From NCBI GenBank assembly GCA_963281255.1, contig OY725489.1, positions 6,944,523-7,008,522 of the forward strand: a DNA stretch of 64,000 bases, in the 5' to 3' direction. The notes beneath the pieces were generated by a model that made no database searches, was not told the DNA's origin, and saw only the letters and a program-made list of their open reading frames with translations. This document shows positions 26,883-38,300 of the stretch, piece by piece (the first letter of the stretch is position 1; each line of letters starts with the position of its first letter). The position numbers and the translations under genes are program-made. Origin of the DNA: Aphrocallistes beatrix (lineage: Eukaryota; Porifera; Hexactinellida; Sceptrulophora; Aphrocallistidae).

Positions 26883-29800
26883 CCCCAAAGAGTACTTGAA
26901 GCAAGTTCCAGATATGCAGTCAAGAATTACAGAGCTATGGCAGCAGGTTACATAGTAAAAGAGGGTTCTATTTACAAGGTAAGGATTCAAAATCAGCATA
27001 GCAACGAGCAACAAAAAATATACTAATTCAAAATGATGTTTGGTCCATGGCTCAAAATACTATTTTAAATGTGCATACGTATTATTTATACTTGTAGATC
27101 GTGAAACAGGTTGACGAGATTAAATTCTTAAAAAGCGCTAAAATACAAGAAGTACAAGAATTACTGAAAAAATTCCATGATGTGCCAGGTCATGATGGCA
27201 TCAACTCTACATATCGTATATTTCCAGGGAATTTTACCGGAAGGCAATGTCAAGAGATGTTAAAGAATATGTGAGTTGTTTATTTACTACCTCATATGAA
27301 GCCAGTTTATCCAAACCCTTTGCAGGGGACGTAGGAAGCTTTATTAGTTGTTTCCTTATTAGTAATTCAATTACAGAGACATAAAATCTCAATTGTTAAA
27401 AATTCCTTTGAATTCGTTTACACATTCAGACGATAAGTGGCCCGAGGGTCCATGGACACCCATGAACAATGTAGTTGCTTTTTCTCTATTACTATCACGC
27501 CGTAGATGATCCCCCGCAGTAATTGGTCCGGCCGGACCATCTACGGCAGTGGTGAATGGTCCCCCTTTGCCGTATTTAGTCCACCTCTAAATCTCACACC
27601 ACAGTGTTGTTTTAATGGGTATTTTGAGTTTTTCATAATTGTTTACTAAATTTCAATGAATTAAAATTGGATTAAAATTGTGTTTTGACATATTTTTCAT
27701 AGGATCGGTCTCAGTCTTGAACAGTATATTTAAGAGTATTTCTAAGTAGTCATACCATAATCAACAATAGAAATTCTCACCAGACACAAAAGGAAATACT
27801 AAATACATCAACCTGGCTAAACAAATGTCTATTTTGTACAAATAATCTGGGGAACAATTTAGTTCGCCGTGGATAGACTGAGACGGGGACTATCTACGAA
27901 AGAGGCGGACCACGGCGTCATGGATAGTCCGGGGGACCATATGTGGCGCCGTACATGGTCCCCCAGACCATCCATGACGTCGTGAATGGTCTGGCCGGAC
28001 CAACCTTAGGGGGGACCATCTACGGCATGACACTACCATATACTTTCGTACATCAACTATATTATCATGTCTAATTATTCGAATACATGGATTACTCTCT
28101 ATTTTCGATGTATTTATATTGTAAAGGTGAAAAATTGTCAATATTGTCAAGTGGAAGCTTCAATTCCTCACAATCACGACAGAGAATTGCAACCTATCCG
28201 CCCCCCAAGTTATCCATGGAAACATTTGGGCATCGATATAATCTCAGATTTTGAATCAGACAATGATGAATTTAAGCACATTTTTGTAACAGTCTGTTAT
28301 TTGAGCAAATTCGTTTGTGCACATCCACTGAAGAGCAAAAGAAGTTCCGAAATAATTTGCCTCTGAAAAAGACATTTCTCGCTTATGGCGTGCCAAACAA
28401 AACACGATCAAGGGCCATAATTTATTAGTAAGGTGCAATATATTTTAAGTTTATTTGTAAAATAATTTATTCTATGCTTAAATATATATAATTATCTAGG
28501 AAAGAAATTCGCTGAACAACTCAAAATTGATAATAGATCTACGGCAGCATACCACCCTCAAGCAAATGGCTTGGTAGAATCCCACAATAAAATATTGAAA
28601 AGGTAATTGATTTCAATACTACACTTTACTGTCAAATATTTTAAACTAATCGAATTATGTTATAAATGTCATGTAGAGTGCTAACAAAGATGACAATCCA
28701 ATCTGGCAAAGAGTGGTTAGAATTGCTTCCTGCTGCTGTCTTCAAAATGAATTGCACCTACAAACGCTCGATTAGGACTACTCCATACAAAATCATGTTT
28801 GGAAGAGAGAGTGCTTATATTAATCTACTAACTACTCAAATTAATTCAGTTTGATTCAGTTGAGGAGGAAATCACACCAAGTGAAGATGAACATTCGCTA
28901 AGTGATGTTGAAGATAGAGATTATTTGACTGATTTTGATGTATCTAATTTCGAGAACAAAAGAAAAGTATCACAGAATATAGCCCGAGAAAGCATTCTTC
29001 GTGAACGAACTATTCAAAAGCGCATTTTTGATGCAAAGGTTCAGCACAAGAGGTATATTTAAGATTATAATATATATCTTTTACATTCTCTTATATACAA
29101 TTTAACCAGTTTACATTGTTGATAGGTATAAAATTGAAGAAAATGATCAATTTATCATCAGAAACAAACCCAAAGAAAAGAAAATACCGGGTACAAAAAG
29201 TCAACCAAAATATCTAGGACCTTTTACAGCAGAAAGAGTAACACCTACTTGCATTGAATATACTCCTAACAAAATTGACAAACGCAAAACGAAGAAAATA
29301 ACAACTCATCTTGCTAAAAATTATTTTTCAAAGGAAAAGGTTATTACGAATTCTACAATTTAACTGTCGATGTTTAATAGTACTTATGCAGATCAATATA
29401 TCATTGATAGAATAAGACAGATCTCCGAAAAGAGCAGGTCCCTTTGAAATCGCAATCACAAAACAAACATCACTCTGAAAAATGGGTATATGGATTTGAG
29501 AAAGAAGAAGTACTTAGACAGTTGGAATTGTTCAAGGTACTGAATCATTTAGCAGTAACAATTGATTTGAATTATTTATCTATCATTTTTGCATAAATTA
29601 GACTGATTATTACTACCACTGGAAAAAAGGAACCTACTTTTCTGAGCCCCACAAACTACTTGATGATAATAACTCAAAAAAAGGGTTCTTCATACCTGAT
29701 GGACTGATATGTGATCTAATCAAGGATGCTGGGAGATTGGAAATGGTATGTATTTTAAGTTATTAGTTATTTCTTAGGATATACATTGAGACAAACCCTG

Positions 29801-29980
29801 AAAAATCATTATATGAAGATAAACTTCGCTATTTCATCACTCTTTTTTACAGAAATCACTAATAGTTAATTCCTTAATGGAACTCACCCAAAGAATGAAT
29901 CCTACATTGGGAGCAACAGCAGCATGTGATCATGTCTTAAAAGTTGTTTATGGCGTGGTAAGATAATTATCTAGAGTTGT
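26883..29980 (+). pseudogene. Ginger-like integrase/transposase gene, several exons
   Basis: Proposed exons: about 26883-26979, 27099-27269, 28126-28366, 28500-28602, 28677-29050, 29127-29338, about 29436-29537, 29601-29743 and 29853-29958. The second and third supply the H-H-C-C zinc finger (HDVPGHDG, then CQYCQ). Exon 3 has the first catalytic Asp (HLGIDIISDFE). NGLVESHNKILKR supplies the Glu. KYLGPFTAERV matches a GPY/F module. The segment that should carry the second Asp (AYGVPNKT, then a DQGHN-like stretch near 28400) is frameshifted, so the enzyme is dead. Exon limits are judged from GT/AG sites. The OTU part follows. Confidence 0.75.
27495..28031. mobile_element. MITE in a Ginger intron
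   Basis: Inverted ends containing GCCGTAGATGATCCCCC and GGGGGGACCATCTACGGC. GGTCCGGCCGGACC-type palindromes lie near both ends. It sits between two integrase exons. The reverse-strand ORF inside is spurious. Confidence 0.7.
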
Positions 29981-30028
29981 TAGAAATTACCATGAAAATT
30001 ATGTTAAAGTGTCTATTATTTCTAGGCA

Positions 30029-30742
30029 ATGGAATCTATAACGTTATTACTGATGGAGAAAATAAAAGTAACACCATTCCATAAGATGGCAGACTCGAAA
30101 CACAAGATAATGCCCCTCGAAAATCATTTCATATCTCCGTTAAGTGTGAATTGGCAAATGGACAAATGCTCGAGACTCGGAATAATATATAGACAACCTA
30201 TTAAACAGCTTTCTACACTCGCAGGGCGTAAACTGAGTGATTACCTTCCATGGCAGTATGAAGATATTGAAAAGGATGGAAATTGTTTTTTCAGATGTGT
30301 TTCTAAACTTATTTCTGGTTCTCAAGAGTACTAAGCAAAAATCCGTGGAGAAATATGTAGATTCATCGCGAAGGATGGGAAAGATGTATTAGGATGGTAT
30401 TTTCATGTTATATCTGAAACGTCATTGAGTTACTTAACGCGGACTACTATGGAACTAAATGGAGTATGGGGCAGTGAAGTTGAAATATTGGCTGTTTCTG
30501 CAATTTTAGAAACAGAAATCTATGTTGCTGTTGAATGTGATAACTTCACCAAAGAATCCCCATATAATATTCTACAAAAGAACATAAAATGGCATCGCTA
30601 CACCGCATCAAACAATTACAACAAGTCTTTTGCAATATACATTGCTAATCTCGAAAACCACTATGAACCTGTAATCTCGCTAATTAATAGTGGATACCCC
30701 ACATACGCTCAAAACTACCAAGATGTTATATCAATAGAATGA
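30029..30742 (+). pseudogene. OTU cysteine protease domain of the Ginger-like element
   Basis: OTU proteases cleave ubiquitin chains. EKDGNCFFRCVSKLISG gives the Asp and catalytic Cys. VWGSEVEILAVSAI matches the middle conserved block, and LENHYEPVISL gives the catalytic His. One in-frame stop lies after SGSQEY (30332), otherwise the whole domain is readable in one frame. It is the last exon region of the Ginger-like gene, and its acceptor is near 30026. OTU domains are known in some Ginger elements. Their role in transposition is not established. Confidence 0.82.
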
Positions 30743-31169
30743 TATGTTATATAAGTATTTACTCTTCAGAATGATTTAGATTCTACTATACAGGCTCTTT
30801 AGATTTATTCTCGTCCCTCTTTTATGCTTGTATTACAATTCTATTTTTGATCTAGATGAAAACATGTAGTTTCTTGACAAATAACTAATTAGAGCAATTG
30901 TTTCCAAACGGTAAAATTGACCATTATTGTGAGGAAATATTCCATACCCACAGACTACGTTACTATAGACTATTCACTGAGTAATTTCTCCATTACCATA
31001 GATTACTTCAAGTCTATTTTCTAAACCACCCATAAAGTTTGAATACAAATTTACTACTATTCAGTCTAGGTCAATTTTTTATTACATTCTAATTACCACA
31101 CCATTCACCCCTCCTTTTTTGCTTATACTCTCTATTTACCATTTTCTTCCTTTTTTATTTGCTAGAAAC

Positions 31170-31646
31170 ATGCCCAATAGGTGTAATGTTGCTAATTGCA
31201 CTTCAAATTATGATGGTACTGAATATACTCCTGTATTTGAGATGTTGAATCACTGGCCAAAGGAAGTACAAGATGAATGGAGAAAGTTTTTACACCGAGA
31301 TGATGCCTCGCAATTGACCAGAGTTTTAATCTGTGCTAAGCATTTTAGTGAGAAGGACCTGTTACTTACTGTTGAAATACCTCAGAGCGATGGTTCTATC
31401 AATAAGTTTCCCCGCAAACCTAGTCTTCACAAAGGTGCAAAGCCTACCCTTCTACCAAATTGTCCATCTTACTTACAAGGTCAAAATGAACCTGCGGAAC
31501 GTCTTGACCGTGATGAAATAGATATCCGACACTTCCATCGTGCGCTTGAGTTGAGTATTGCTGAGCACCAAACAGAGAATGAAAAGTACTCAGTAATTAC
31601 CATTGATGAAGTCCAACAGAAATATTCAATATTAAAACTTGCATGA
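31170..31646 (+). CDS. THAP N-terminal part of P-like transposase
   Basis: I chose the ATG at 31170 because it gives MPNRCNVANC, the canonical THAP start; the frame is open from 31119. The zinc ligands are C5 and C10 and C-x2-H in ICAKHFSEKDL. A PRKPSLHKGAKPTLLPN linker follows (the position of the AVPSIF motif of THAP), then a short acidic-basic helix. It ends at TGA 31644-31646 just before the nested inverted-repeat element. As it stands it is a 158-residue THAP-only protein. It may have been a longer transposase before the insertion. Confidence 0.85.
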   Translation: MPNRCNVANCTSNYDGTEYTPVFEMLNHWPKEVQDEWRKFLHRDDASQLTRVLICAKHFSEKDLLLTVEIPQSDGSINKFPRKPSLHKGAKPTLLPNCPSYLQGQNEPAERLDRDEIDIRHFHRALELSIAEHQTENEKYSVITIDEVQQKYSILKLA

Positions 31647-32149
31647 ATAATGGATGAAGTTAGCAGCACGAAAAGTGAGCACGACATAACTCGTTATAAC
31701 TTTTCGCTTAGGCTGAATATCCGGTTCAAATTTGTATAACAGCATTATGAGCGAGGTAGTTTTGTATCACTCCAATTTTTTGTCCCTTTCTTCAAAAACC
31801 ACTTCACAGTGACTTTGCAAAAATTCCCGATTTTCACTATACAAATTCATGTACGATTTGACTGATCACGACATAACTGGTTATAACTTTTTGCTTAGGC
31901 TGAATATCCGGTTCAAATTTGTATAACAGCATTATGAGCGAGGTAGTTTTGTATCACTCCAATTTTTTGTCCCTTTCTTCAAAAACCACTTCACAGTGAC
32001 TTTGCAAAAATTCCCGATTTTCACTATGCAAATTTATTAATATGCTAATATTTCTATTCTTGACGCGCTAAATCAGAATTGCAATCTAATTGTGTACTAG
32101 TTCTAAATTTCTATGTGACTAACTTCATAGTATATTTACTATGGAACTA

Positions 32150-32587
32150 AACTTCTTATTTTGGAAGCCCTTGAGTTCTGGTGTTAACCTTGATGACAGG
32201 CTGAAAGTGGCTCATGTTTAATCTCAAATAAACTCTGCGTTCTGTTAAATCATGTGTAGATTTAGCATCAATGAAGCCATGTCCTGAGAATTTCAACCAG
32301 GATTGTTCTTCATCATTGTACTAGACAAAGATATCTGTTCTCAGGATGATAGCTGCTAAAAATATTTCTAGGTATGTACCCCAAGATCCTACTCGGTCCA
32401 TTTTGCTTGCTTTCAGATAATCTTCAATCGAATTGCAACGTTCCTCTAGCAATAAATCTTTTCGAGTTTGAACGTAATTGGTGGCTAATTTCCTATATTC
32501 GCCCTTCATTTTATCAATTATTAACTCCCGTATTTCTTTATGATTGTAATCTGTTCCAGTAATTATGATAAAGAGCGAAACAAGCAA
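32150..32587 (-). pseudogene. OTU protease domain of the nested element
   Basis: The minus frame continues the OTU domain begun at the end of the 32563-33459 ORF (SPDGNCLFRSLS, catalytic Cys). It then reads TGTDYNHKEIRELI, GSWGTYLEIFLAAI and, after an in-frame TAG near 32320, LNMSHFQPVI with the catalytic His. A frameshift separates the Cys block from the rest. The order and spacing match the OTU of the Ginger-like element 1.8 kb away, although the sequences differ. Confidence 0.8.
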
Positions 32588-33459
32588 TTCCCATCAGGTG
32601 AAATCCTTTTTTCTTTTGTAGGAATTAATTGTCGAATCTCAAGAGATTTATCAGCGGCTTCATTTTCATATAGTATTCCTGTTGTAAATGTTAGTCTTAT
32701 CACCTTGCACTTTTCCCTTTGCCAACTCGGAGTTACAGTCTTGAATTCTCCATGATAATAGGATTTTACATCTACTATAGAGAGAGTTTCATCTGGAATA
32801 GAATCGTCATTAGACAAATCAGTGTACAATGTTACTGCCTTTGAGTTGACCTGAGGGCTAGTGACCATTATGGAAGGCAAATGATTAAGTTTTCCGTGTC
32901 TTGGATTCTTGAACTTTTTAAGTGAAGCTTGTTTGTTAGAGTTCATTGGCTTTCCTGGTTTGAAGTATGTCTGTCTTGGTTTCTTCTTCTCCCACATTTC
33001 ATCAATTTGATCATAATATTTTGGTTGTTGTGTTTTTTGTCTCTTGAGAACTTTAAGGCTCAATGGATTGAATGCAAATTCGAATGCCTTTATTCTACCA
33101 ACAATACCTCCCCTTAATTTGAGAATGAAATCTCCCGGTCTTAGTTTGCATTGTTTCTGTAAAATTGTTATCTTTACAATTCTCATCCAGTTTTCTGCAA
33201 TTGCATTCGTGGATGTCACGTGATATTGACCTGGGTGCAAGGATGGGCCTAGTATAAGACCTGACCAGAGGGGACAAACTGGCATGTAATGAGTTACAAA
33301 AAATGATGGTAAATCTGGAAAGTAGTAGTTGTTTTTAGGAGTGTTTTCATTCTGTTCTTCCATTTCAAATATGCCAACAAGCGTCTTGCAGTTCATTAAT
33401 TCATTCTGAAAATGTATACCAAATGGAGATCTTGATTTGTATGTTTTGCTATCTCCCAT
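32563..33459 (-). pseudogene. Transposase-like protein with NAIAEN motif, fused to OTU
   Basis: 298 residues. Residues about 85-100 read NAIAENWMRIVKITIL, then KLRPGDFILKLRGG. The Glu in such an NA-x2-EN-W helix resembles the last catalytic residue of DDE-type transposases; this is inference. A Lys-rich linker (about 130-190) leads to the start of the OTU domain. Upstream, minus-strand pieces (33789-33592) give further protein in other frames. I cannot name the family. Intact homologues would be needed to see the whole protein. Confidence 0.6.
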
Positions 33460-33591
33460 TTCATTGGGTAATGATTCATCTAGTTCTGTGATTTAACAAC
33501 ATTATCTGTTCTTCACTATACAAGTGAATGATGAATGGGGAATGACTTATGAATTGAATGTAGCCGTTAAGAGTATTCCCAATGATTGTGC

Positions 33592-33830
33592 TCATATATG
33601 ACATTTGGGTGCTAATGATGTCCTGCCACATATCATTATTAAATCGGGATTTTTCAAAGTGCTGTGACTTGACCTTTCTAATGACATCGGTTGAGTGTAA
33701 ATAATTGAAGTTTCCTTTTTTGGCAACGGATAAATTTTGTGAATCAACAAAGAGGGAATAATGAAGATTAGAAGGACTGGAAAGTTCAAGCTGTTTCGCA
33801 GTGGCTTCTCTTCTGTCTCCTGATAAATGT
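33592..33830 (-). pseudogene. Middle fragment of the nested-element protein
   Basis: It carries KKGNFNYLHSTDVIRK and RFNNDMWQDIIS across frames between the 33872-34576 ORF and the NAIAEN part. It is frameshifted and probably the same polypeptide. Function unknown. Confidence 0.45.
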
Positions 33831-33871
33831 CGGCTGTGCGAAATTAAATTAGATGAATGTTCTTCAGAGAT

Positions 33872-34576
33872 TCATCCAGTAGCAGTATAATTAACGAGAT
33901 AAAGATTGCTTGCGTTTGTTTGCGGTGTTTCCATTTCAAATTTGAAGGTGAAACAATTGCTAAACTTGCAAACTGCTGCTGCAATAAGAAATGCATTTCC
34001 ACGTCTTGAATAGCTTTTGTTAATTCGATGGTATAAAAATTTTAGAACACAAAACGGGTAGTAAACGGAAATTTTCTCATTAAATAAGGTTGTCCATTCT
34101 GACTTTAGAGCACTTTCTGAAAAATTTGGAAAAATTCTGAACCATTCTTGGCCTGTCAATCCAAATTCACCTCGATTTGTCGACTGAACTATGTGCATTT
34201 TACTAGATACCTGATCAGTGGATTCAATGCTAATAATTGAGCTTATGTCTGATTCTAGTGAATTATCAGAATGGGAGAAAAGCACGTTATGATTACGAAT
34301 ATCTGGTAATTCAGAAATGTTGATACTGATAGGTAGAGTAAATTTATCTTTAGGTAGTGTCAATGCTTGTGTTACCTGAGATTTGATATTCCAGTTGTTG
34401 TTTCGCCAGATGTTCATAAGTTTCGCCCGTAGTTGCAAGCGATTTCTTCTATAAACATATTTTGCCAGCTTACCCCAGATAGAAGAGGCATCCCGCCAAT
34501 TTCGTGTTTTAAGCAATTCGAGATTGTTCAGAATTAATGAACCATGTCCAGTTAACTTGGATAAGGCATCGGTCAT
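33872..34576 (-). CDS. Protein following the 2A peptide (unknown)
   Basis: 234 residues from the in-frame Met. The reading frame extends upstream by splicing from the 2A exon: an acceptor TTGATTCAG near 34635 is followed by FIIETGDVKQG. Contains a basic stretch (YVYRRNRLQLRAKLMNIWR), an acidic Ser-rich middle, then LTGQEWFRIFPNFSESAL and a C-terminal part with two Cys. No known motif. It stops with TGA at about 33872, but similar coding continues downstream in other frames. Confidence 0.6.
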   Translation of the reverse strand: MTDALSKLTGHGSLILNNLELLKTRNWRDASSIWGKLAKYVYRRNRLQLRAKLMNIWRNNNWNIKSQVTQALTLPKDKFTLPISINISELPDIRNHNVLFSHSDNSLESDISSIISIESTDQVSSKMHIVQSTNRGEFGLTGQEWFRIFPNFSESALKSEWTTLFNEKISVYYPFCVLKFLYHRINKSYSRRGNAFLIAAAVCKFSNCFTFKFEMETPQTNASNLYLVNYTATG

Positions 34577-34705
34577 CTTTGAGACAATCTCGTTACCTTG
34601 CTTGACATCACCAGTTTCTATAATAAATTCTCTGAATCAAATATATCATTGCTTATTATTAGAAACATCAATAAAAATACGTATTGTGTAGTATATGTAA
34701 AATAA

Positions 34706-34972
34706 CTAACCATTATATCTTGGTCCAGGGTTCACTTCTACATCTCCGCAAATAATAAGGAATAGAGATAGAATTGTTAAGATGGAGATCAAAATGTTGC
34801 ATGTAACAAATCCAGGAATATCTATCATTTTGCAGCATCTTGATTTTGTAGATTTCCGTGAATTGAATATGCCAATGTGGTTGCGCCATGTACAAAGATC
34901 AACCCCCATTAGTAAATGCAAAACTGAAATGTTATAGGCGTGAAATTCGAATAAGTTATCAATATTATCCAA
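34706..34972 (-). CDS. 2A ribosome-skipping leader peptide
   Basis: 88 residues ending in ICGDVEVNPGPRYNG, a full match to the 2A consensus D-V/I-E-x-N-P-G-P. Ribosomes skip the Gly-Pro bond, here between residues 83 and 84. The preceding 25 residues (about GFVTCNILISILTILSLFLI) are hydrophobic and could be a signal sequence. A second Met at residue 49 (codon ending 34826) would make a leader of about 35 residues. A GT donor (GTTAGT) directly after the RYNG codons would splice it to the exon ahead of 34576. 2A peptides are known from RNA viruses and some non-LTR retrotransposons. Here the setting is a DNA-transposon-like unit. Confidence 0.8.
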   Translation of the reverse strand: MDNIDNLFEFHAYNISVLHLLMGVDLCTWRNHIGIFNSRKSTKSRCCKMIDIPGFVTCNILISILTILSLFLIICGDVEVNPGPRYNG

Positions 34973-35539
34973 TAACCAAAGAATAATCGTATTAACTATT
35001 AACTATATTTATTTGTATTTATCAGAATATTATGCTATAGTCACAGAAGCCAAAATAATGAATACGTCAAAACACTCGTCCAAAATTAACTACAAATGAC
35101 GACAATTAACAATCTATGACAATAGCATTTTGTACCTAACACTGTGTACTACAAATATGCAACTCAAATCGTACATGAATATGTATAGTGAAAATCGGGA
35201 ATTTTTGCAAAGTCATTGTGAAGTGGTTTTTGAAGAGAGGGACAAAAAATTGGAATAATACAAAACTACCTCGCTCATAATGCTGTGATACAAATTTGAA
35301 CCGGATATTCAGCCTAAGCGAAAAGTTATAACCAGTTATGTCGTGCTCAGTCAAATCGTATATGAATTTGTATAGTGAAAATCGGGAATTTTTGCAAAGT
35401 CACTGTGAAGTGGTTTTTGAAGAGAGGGACAAAAAATTGGAATAATACAAAACTACCTCGCTCATAATGCTGTGATACAAATTTGAACCGGATATTCAGC
35501 CTAAGCGAAAAGTTATAACCAGTTATGTCTGATACCTTA

Positions 35540-36875
35540 CCTTATCAACTAGCAACGGCTTCCTTCCAGGATATCAGGAATTTATACAAGTTGGAGCAAT
35601 TTTCAAATGCTAAAACAGCCCACAAATTAACTTCCTAAGCAGTCTGGCCATCAACATTTGAGAGACAAAGTGTACCTTTAGCTCTAGCAGTTTGGGATCA
35701 ATCAACACACAATGCTATCTTCGTATTCAACCAGAGAAACAAAATTTTCAATCAGACTCATCAATTTATTGCTCTTATATCCAGATTTTGGAAGATTTGC
35801 AACATTCATAGTCCTGGTAAAGATATTCGTCTACTCGATGCTGATTCTAAGGTATTTAAAAACCAAGATGACCGTTTTGAATTCCTTGCAAAATTTTGTT
35901 CTTGGCTATGAGGACTGGAAAATACTTAGCTGTACTGGAAAAGCTGGTAAACTTAGCTCACAGACCTTTGCAAGCTTAATTCACACTACTAAAGTTATTC
36001 CTAAAATTATCAATCACTTGACCAGCGATGAATGTGGATTTTCCTATGTGCTAACCGGATTCTTACAAAACGACTCACTCGAGAAGCATTTTGGTGTTTA
36101 CCGATTAATGTCTGGTTGCCAATACAACATTTCTTTTTGTCAAATTCTTGAGAGTGAGCGACGAATCAAGATTGGTTTCATTCTGAAGTTGTACCAAGCC
36201 CAAGATGGCAAGTATGAGTCTTCACTGAAGGAATTTGTTAGAAGCTTTTCAGTTCAGCCGAATACCCCAGTTCACCAATCAGACTTGAGCATTTATTCTC
36301 CTCTTCTACATGAAAATTTTGATTTCTCACCTACTATGGAAATTCGCCAAACATTGGCTTTTATTGGTGGATATGCTGTTCACAACATTTATAAGAATAT
36401 GCTCTATTCAAAAAAGTCTAAGCCCACTTCTTATTGTAAACATTGTGTATCTCTACTCACTGAAGTTGAATGTTTTTCCCTGTCGTGTGAAGAGTCTGAT
36501 CTTACTCTCATCCACTTAGCTGACCGGGGTGGTCTTAAATATCCATCCAGCGATGTAATAAGTGCAGTTACTATTCAATGGCAAATACTTGTTATTCTTG
36601 AGCAGAACCCAGCTTTGTTCAGTCATTTTATTTCTGAATCAGATAAAAGTATTCTAATTCAATTAGCGATGTCAAGAATTGAATTCGTTGGTTTTGAATT
36701 CTGGAGAGATAAATGCCCTGATTGTCAAAGACCTTTCGTAAGCTACCTGGCTCAAATCATCTCTGCTACAACTAACTGTTTACTGAAGAATAAGATAAGG
36801 AATTTGAACTCTAAACGAAAACTGGATAATCCTAAAGGATCGAAGAAAAAACTACGAAAGTTGCAGTCAAAGTGA
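35540..36875 (+). pseudogene. P-like transposase C-terminal region
   Basis: Starts with FQDIRNLYKLEQFSNAKTAH in another frame, then the ORF 35712-36875 carries NDSLEKHFGVYRLMSGCQYN, ISFCQILESERR, FIGGYAVHNIY and a Cys-rich end (CPDCQRPF). These match the transposase at 55.5-57.7 kb. Several frame changes occur before 35880. The Asp-bearing middle of the transposase is absent, so this copy cannot be active. Confidence 0.85.
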
Positions 36876-37106
36876 TTTCTAACAGTGTGTATTATTACTT
36901 GTAATATTAGTTAATTTGTGTAAGCAGGGATGCGTAGTGTGATAAAATGCTATAAATCTATTTGTTTTTCAATTTATCGAACGATTCAAAGCATGTTAAT
37001 AAATATTAGAGAGTACATTATAGATTTGATTTTTCGAAGCACTAGACTTGAAGTAATCCATGGTAAATTCAGTGAATAGTCTATAGTAACGTAGTCTGTG
37101 TCCATA

Positions 37107-37353
37107 CCGTATTGCGAATAAGCGCCCCTATTTATTTCGTTCACCCTTTAGACCGGGCGCTTATTTTTTCATTTACTATTTTGACCACGAACATAAAAGA
37201 GTATATAAAGAATATACAATAGAAGCTCTATAAGTGGGACAATATTAATATTAATCAATATTAAGCATAATATAAACAAAATTAGAACTAAATTGCTGGA
37301 TGCTTATTTTTTCATTCATTATCTTGACCAGGTACTTATTCGGAGCAATACGG
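37107..37353. mobile_element. TA-flanked MITE next to the P-like element
   Basis: The left end CCGTATTGCGAATAAGCGCC and the inverse of the right end (CCGTATTGCTCCGAATAAG) agree, with TA outside. Its first two bases lie inside the TCCATACC duplication of the P-like element, so the P-like element inserted at the MITE edge. Confidence 0.8.
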
Positions 37354-37607
37354 TATACGTATATATTCGAATATTAATACAAATGTACTTCAGTTATAAG
37401 TTCCTCTAATTCCCCTAATACAAAAAAATAATTCAGCAATAGCATCCCTAATGAAGGTAACTTAGTGGCTTATATTCTACTACACCGTAGATGGTTCGCC
37501 TGGGCTACTCAAGGTACTAACGAATAGTACGCCTCTTAATTTACTTAAGATGCATGCGGTATGTTCTGTATTACTTTTATGCATGTTTTTCTCATGAGTT
37601 TTAATTA

Positions 37608-38300
37608 CGAATTGATTGAAGAAACTGCCAGGCGCAGAAAGCTGATTTTTAGCATGTGGGAGTCTTTTGGCTATGGCTCCAGTAAGTTCTGAGCTCAGAG
37701 CAAAATTTCGACTCATCATGGAATTATGACGTCATTGTCACATTTTTAAAAGTTAAGCAATATAGTTATTCGAGCATAACTCAGCCATTATACGAGATAG
37801 AAGGTTGAAATTTTAATAGAATCGGTATACTAACATATCTCACATAAGATGCACCTAGTATCATCAAAAAATGATGGCTCATCACTTTTTTTATGACGTC
37901 ATTACTCATCAAAATTTAAAAAATTGATAAATTTGGTGTGATATCTATTATAACAGTAGGACAGACGTATTTAGAGATGTTATTTCCTTTATATTACTCA
38001 ATGTGACCCCAGGCGCCCAAAGGGCGCCTCCGGCGGACACTTTGTGTCCGCCAGCCGCGCAGCACAAGCAGGGGTTTATCTAGGTGCTCGGCCAGCACTT
38101 ATAGGTGCCAGTCTGGTATCGTCGGAGGAGTCAAGATGCTTGCAGTGTGATTCGATTTTGGCGTTGGGTTGCCATCACCCCTGGAATTACAAGATAAACC
38201 CCTGTTTAGGTGCCATGTAACTTTTATCACCTCCAAAAAAGTGCCGGACTGGAAAATCTTAGATAAAACCATGAGCGCAAGCAAGCGAAGCGCGCTTGTA
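37608..38300 (+). repeat. Repeat family A copy split by a MITE
   Basis: Starts ACGAATTGATTGAAGAAACT and ends in the hairpin tail. Between GCGCAGCACAAG and GCGCAAGCAAGC a 205-bp MITE is inserted. It truncates the right arm of the Ginger-like element. Confidence 0.85.
38069..38273. mobile_element. hAT-type MITE
   Basis: Ends CAGGGGTTTATCTAGG and CTTAGATAAAACCATG. AGCACAAG and AGCGCAAG flank it (one mismatch). A second copy lies inverted at 46011-46190. Confidence 0.8.

Follow-up and report, generated by a model that had tools for sequence, protein, structure and literature searches.

In a 64,000-nt stretch of Aphrocallistes beatrix DNA (assembly GCA_963281255.1, contig OY725489.1, positions 6,944,523 to 7,008,522 of the forward strand; hereafter the window) we found the remains of a MULE-like cut-and-paste transposon, the transposase-OTU mRNA of which would begin with a small exon coding for a 2A (StopGo) peptide; we give this reading a probability of about 0.78. 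The minus-strand open reading frame (ORF) 34706-35002 contains ...FVTCNILISILTILSLFLIICGDVEVNPGPRYNG, also given as ...SLFLIICGDVEVNPGPRYNG, with the octapeptide DVEVNPGP at 34721-34744 and GDVEVNPGP at 34721-34747. A preliminary description of the window had taken the latter for a full 2A consensus, and this was borne out in the genome searched (100.5 Mb, 28 contigs): the octapeptide pattern D(V/I)ExNPGP has 30 exact matches genome-wide and the reversed pattern, used as control, has none, with a chance expectation of 0.04 (both strands of 100.5 Mb, G+C of the window). The parts of the gene present in the window are the following (a slash marks a predicted splice border).

34711-34909, minus strand: exon 1, leader MGVDL...FLIICG-DVEVNPGP-RYN, 66 aa plus one base; exact pattern match at C2:6979244-6979266
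34630-34710, minus strand: predicted intron, 81 nt, phase 1, G/GTTAGT ... TTCAGAG/AATTT, seen from sequence
33494-34629, minus strand: exon 2, transposase residues 1-381 (tblastn match 33494-34636), one internal stop
32566-33492, minus strand: transposase residues 600-908, including ENWMR (Glu699 in copy L010)
32159-32587, minus strand: C-terminal OTU-like protease, residues 903-1044, in another frame, one stop

The same description had placed a splice donor right behind the motif and an in-frame exon downstream, and both stand as a predicted splice: the donor G/GTTAGT leaves 34711 as the last base of exon 1, the in-frame predicted acceptor TTCAGAG/AATTT makes exon 2 start at 34629, and the predicted junction reads PGPRYN-EFIIETGD, in frame. 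The predicted acceptor, which had been put near 34635, is in frame and lies a few bases off that place. An alternative AG two bases earlier (CAG in family A, to which the window copy belongs) was rejected as out of frame. As a transposase gene the window copy consists of remnants in place and is dead, nested in a P element: residues 382-599, including both catalytic Asp and CxxH, are deleted, and two of the three remaining transposase pieces each carry one stop. Its OTU domain matched PF02338 on 32321-32590 (minus strand) with E=1.8e-4 and 22.5 bits, below the cut-off of 23.3.

By sequence, the 30 motif matches were assigned to families A (9), B (6), C (10), D (2) and E (2) and to a singleton, L028. 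In 25 of them this transposase follows within 1.5 kb on the same strand; upstream on that strand it was found in 0/30. The transposases of A-D are pairwise 35-64% identical over their aligned parts. Consistent splice signals are observed in five families (A-D, and G with NPGS): phase-1 introns are predicted from sequence at the corresponding place in B, C, D and G, every junction that could be modelled is phase 1, and the predicted junctions are in frame in 7/9 copies of A (with an AG), 6/6 of B, 7/10 of C (three lack an acceptor), 1/2 of D and 4/4 of G; several copies with modelled junctions are broken farther downstream. The octapeptide residues are kept while their codons vary between families (one copy per family), and the upstream hexapeptide, judged by eye against the active 2A classes, fits in most copies.

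The preliminary description had proposed to look for intact copies, and a copy with an intact exon 2 exists. In L010, exon 2 is a single open frame of 1044 aa preceded by an intact leader; L015 matched all 1044 residues at 98%, with its leader interrupted by an insertion, and L011 is open over residues 1-801. These three copies span the whole element and thereby reveal the internal deletion in the window. The leader itself (a 59-residue part of it) has 15 genome matches at E <= 0.001; in six of these, the window copy being one, 58-59 residues align at 97-100% identity. The leader region can be aligned across ten copies (window, L009-L017), two of them partial through insertions. The leader also matched two proteins, P0008 (100%) and P0009 (81%).

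By its sequence the element is a MULE-like DNA transposon, marked by long inverted termini made of tandem units and by a 9-bp target-site duplication (TSD). The terminal inverted repeats (TIRs) of family A are built of units of about 187 bp; 9-bp TSDs were found in A (3 copies), B (1) and C (1) and lie within the 8-11 bp of MULEs, and no TSD was found in the one copy of D examined. The transposase has a DDE core with CxxH, which we take to be the mark of the MULE core. In L010 the OTU domain matched PF02338 with E=1.1e-9 and holds DGNC at 899 and HFQPV at 1028, presumably with the catalytic Cys and His. The claim of a DNA transposon coding for a transposase-like protein that ends in an OTU protease is supported. 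The termini in the window, and the P element around them, are as follows.

31650-32037, plus strand: left TIR, terminus ATGGAT-GAAGTTAGCAGC and two units, 187-bp spacing
35164-35529, plus strand: right TIR, two units, 187-bp spacing
30949-37100, plus strand: host P element around the 2A element, with TIRs and the 8-bp duplication TCCATACC at 30941-30948 and 37101-37108

The right outermost terminus of the window copy was searched for and not found. Terminal tandem arrays were seen in L010, L050, L051 and L055, with units of 187 (A), 184 (B), 186 (C) and 185 bp (F), and none were reported at the TIRs of D; units of about 184-187 bp have a nucleosome-like length, and the printed A and C units look unlike each other.

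Profile and structure searches gave little on the transposase part: Pfam and NCBIfam gave no transposase profile match, which is weak evidence; a PDB sequence search with the alignment gave 0 matches at E up to 1, one with L010 alone gave three weak matches, all in the OTU region (best E 0.021), and Foldseek alone reached at best 4.3e-3 (Hermes), with none <=0.001. Pfam gave only OTU in L010, with no reverse transcriptase or endonuclease. No PHD finger family was matched by the 8 members scanned, several of them partial. Two homologues, P0005 and P0007, end by eye like the start of a USP-type protease, not OTU, and PF00443 (USP-type) matched in one of the 8 members, with E=0.039.

In common with MULE/Rehavkus the element has the DDE core with CxxH, a mark that we assume, as well as long TIRs and a 9-bp TSD, these as described in the excerpt of PMC6446971 (here and below, the cited papers are represented by excerpts). 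For Rehavkus, a minisatellite adjoining the 3' TIR is described (PMC6446971); here the terminal minisatellite is represented by the tandem units of A, B, C and F. The element differs from MULE/Rehavkus by the C-terminal OTU, the 2A leader exon, no PHD finger found and no Pfam transposase match.

The 30 matches were selected by the motif. The unbiased list is the transposase-led one (at least 55 matches, from 44 scored of 767 candidates), which added families F (59%), G (51-53%), H (36-37%), I (35%) and J (34%). Family G has MSSLILRCG-DIETNPGS followed by a 66-nt predicted intron, in frame in the 4/4 copies read; the NPGS pattern has 8 genome matches (control 0), of which, judged by sequence, seven belong to the G type and one resembles C, and L063, the upstream stretch of which was also read, is a G copy. 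Family F has five matches of identical score among the matches listed, and its frame is open over 1041 aa. The motif was not found in the upstream stretches of the transposase matches L061 and L062.

A number of observations weigh against the reading proposed here. The transposase-led list includes families that lack the motif: no 2A is seen in the 1.3 kb upstream of F (2/5 copies were read, and these do not differ across 852 bp), nor in the upstream stretches covered for two copies each of H, I and J, where farther exons are possible. Family G ends in NPGS instead of NPGP. Five of the 30 motif matches have no transposase within 1.5 kb downstream, namely L021, L031 (E), L028, L035, L048 (C), and L033 has YYYICG as its hexapeptide, which is not rich in L. 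Within A, the in-frame acceptor is weak (CAGAG or CAAAG) and in 6/9 copies an out-of-frame CAG stands just before it, L046 would splice into a stop, L047 lacks an acceptor AG, and the leader from Met-Gly-Val-Asp is kept in only 5/9 copies; the leader also led to L018 and L019, which read YPGP and NPEP. Splicing, skipping and function are, moreover, deduced from the sequence. As for conservation and frame in homologues, on which the preliminary description had made its claim depend, the 2A is in frame through the predicted intron in A-D, it was not found in the upstream stretches read of F, H, I and J, and it is altered to NPGS in G.

On these families we made some further observations. The upstream region of F, compared with four leader peptides, gave only short, chance-like matches, and MSADYSN, followed by a 69-nt intron, makes a weak candidate exon there. 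H and J appear to begin in exon 2. For E, a transposase fragment (L054) lies about 2.8 kb beyond L031 on the leader strand (strand read from coordinates), and a search of a further 5.5 kb beyond L021 found no transposase. L028 (1500, minus strand) is a lone 2A leader, RLLSCG-DVETNPGP. L018 and L019 are diverged relatives with a decayed 2A, still with GTAAG at the donor place.

A tree of 16 sequences and 496 columns puts A-D, F, G, P0001 and P0002 on one side and H, I, J and all others on the other, at 77 (UFBoot) and 0.937 (SH-like); support was read off the Newick strings because re-rooting shifts the labels of the listing. F, in which no 2A was found, is placed as sister of A at 100 and 0.998, which belongs to the objections above. 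The 2A exon was probably gained once, in one MULE/OTU clade, followed by P19S in G and loss in F; one gain with loss in F would be the simplest reading of the tree, with modest support, and the direction of gain and loss is what we infer from it.

If the exon works as proposed, ribosomes would first synthesize a leader of some 20-60 residues and let it go at NPG/P, with no peptide bond formed, before continuing into the transposase, which would then start with Pro; unskipped ribosomes would give a fusion and fallen-off ribosomes the leader only. The leaders vary between families in length and hydrophobicity, so the kept function may be the skip itself, which would set the amount and the N-terminus of the transposase, not leader cargo or targeting. 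In fact, the leader of B, MGNNLDAMLLLLCG plus motif, has only 14 residues before the motif, counted from Met, which makes cargo or targeting unlikely as a shared purpose. Tentatively, the N-terminal StopGo could serve the clade as a valve for the output of transposase. It would have been acquired a single time, stayed canonical in A-E, been tuned by P19S in G and disappeared from F, a family with five equally scored copies, as though loss of the valve had released F.

We considered whether the leader might instead act chiefly in dual targeting, as a signal or membrane anchor like those of the sea-urchin NLR proteins, with the 2A doing no more than setting the cytoplasmic share of the transposase. 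N-terminal 2A signal sequences exist (PMC4981915), and the hydrophobic segment seen in the preliminary description is strong in A, where the highest 19-aa Kyte-Doolittle mean (one copy per family) is 2.59. That segment is not shared, however: the values are 0.70 in B, 1.44 in C and 1.07 in D, and a hydrophobic leader was rejected as a conserved feature, since it is missing in B and G (MSSLILRCG plus motif). The signal-sequence role that had been suggested is thus doubtful as a general feature and, as a transposase needs the nucleus, we regard this explanation as unlikely.

Slightly less likely still is that the motif is unused, exon 1 being a 5' leader or short upstream ORF and the transposase starting at a Met of exon 2. 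Such an early Met is present in C (ENMETL), D (VSIMPNS) and A (VSKMTD), and P0003, P0004, H and J, all of them relatives, appear to begin near that point; B, however, has none ahead of the conserved N-terminal part, and the octapeptide residues are conserved though the codons change. There is little to recommend an inherited relic, no longer active: the absence from F, with its five equally scored matches among those listed, and the alteration in G would suit it, whereas the canonical octapeptide persists in A-E, five families with different codons and with leaders of different length, mostly in a fitting upstream context. A chance motif, or the 2A of another element (LINE, RNA-virus insertion) adjoining the transposase, is very improbable: such elements are known to carry 2A and L028 has no transposase within 1.5 kb, yet 25/30 matches are linked on the same strand, the control has 0 matches, Pfam found no reverse transcriptase in the pieces scanned, and for families A-D this is already contradicted.

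As for the surroundings in the window, the 2A element is inserted inside the P element, the middle of which appears to be missing. A THAP-bearing ORF runs from Met 31170 to 31646 (PF05485, E=1.5e-7), and 35688-36875, without Pfam match, is by its likeness presumably the C-terminal part of the P transposase. A repeat of about 400 bp at 37607-37993 is also found in or beside L009, L011, L012, L013, L014 and L015. On the plus strand, 28031-30742 holds integrase-like pieces (by eye, no Pfam match) and then an OTU domain (PF02338, E=2.9e-5), and in L019 pieces resembling, by eye, OTU, THAP and P transposase follow one another in this order. The tRNA and Rfam scans of the window gave 0 and 0.

The 2A of non-LTR retrotransposons was reportedly treated by Heras (2006) and Odon (2013). 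RNA viruses, non-LTR retrotransposons and NLR genes are named as sources of 2A (PMC4981915, PMC11512398), and its cellular use is called rare (PMC12846837); the excerpt of the latter has no word beginning with 'transpos'. Among titles and abstract openings we found no report of 2A in a DNA transposon; novelty is provisional, as absence from print is not established. With the sea-urchin NLR genes (PMC4981915) the element has in common a 2A at the protein N-terminus, there often with a hydrophobic stretch; those are host immune genes, whereas here the protein is a transposase and the stretch is not common to the families. With the non-LTR retrotransposons (PMC11512398, PMC4981915) it shares a 2A in mobile-element coding sequence; those are RNA-based, whereas the one here is a DNA element of the cut-and-paste kind, the 2A exon of which is predicted to be spliced. 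The octapeptide and, in most copies, the upstream hexapeptide context are those of the viral StopGo/2A L-rich motifs 2 and 6 (PMC12846837); the element is not viral, however, and G has Ser at p19, which is not among the natural variants listed in the sections covered. The range given in these excerpts (RNA viruses, non-LTR retrotransposons, some NLR genes) does not include DNA transposons. Here homologous transposases of a single clade come with a canonical 2A, with NPGS or with none, and these natural variants make the purpose of an N-terminal 2A directly testable.
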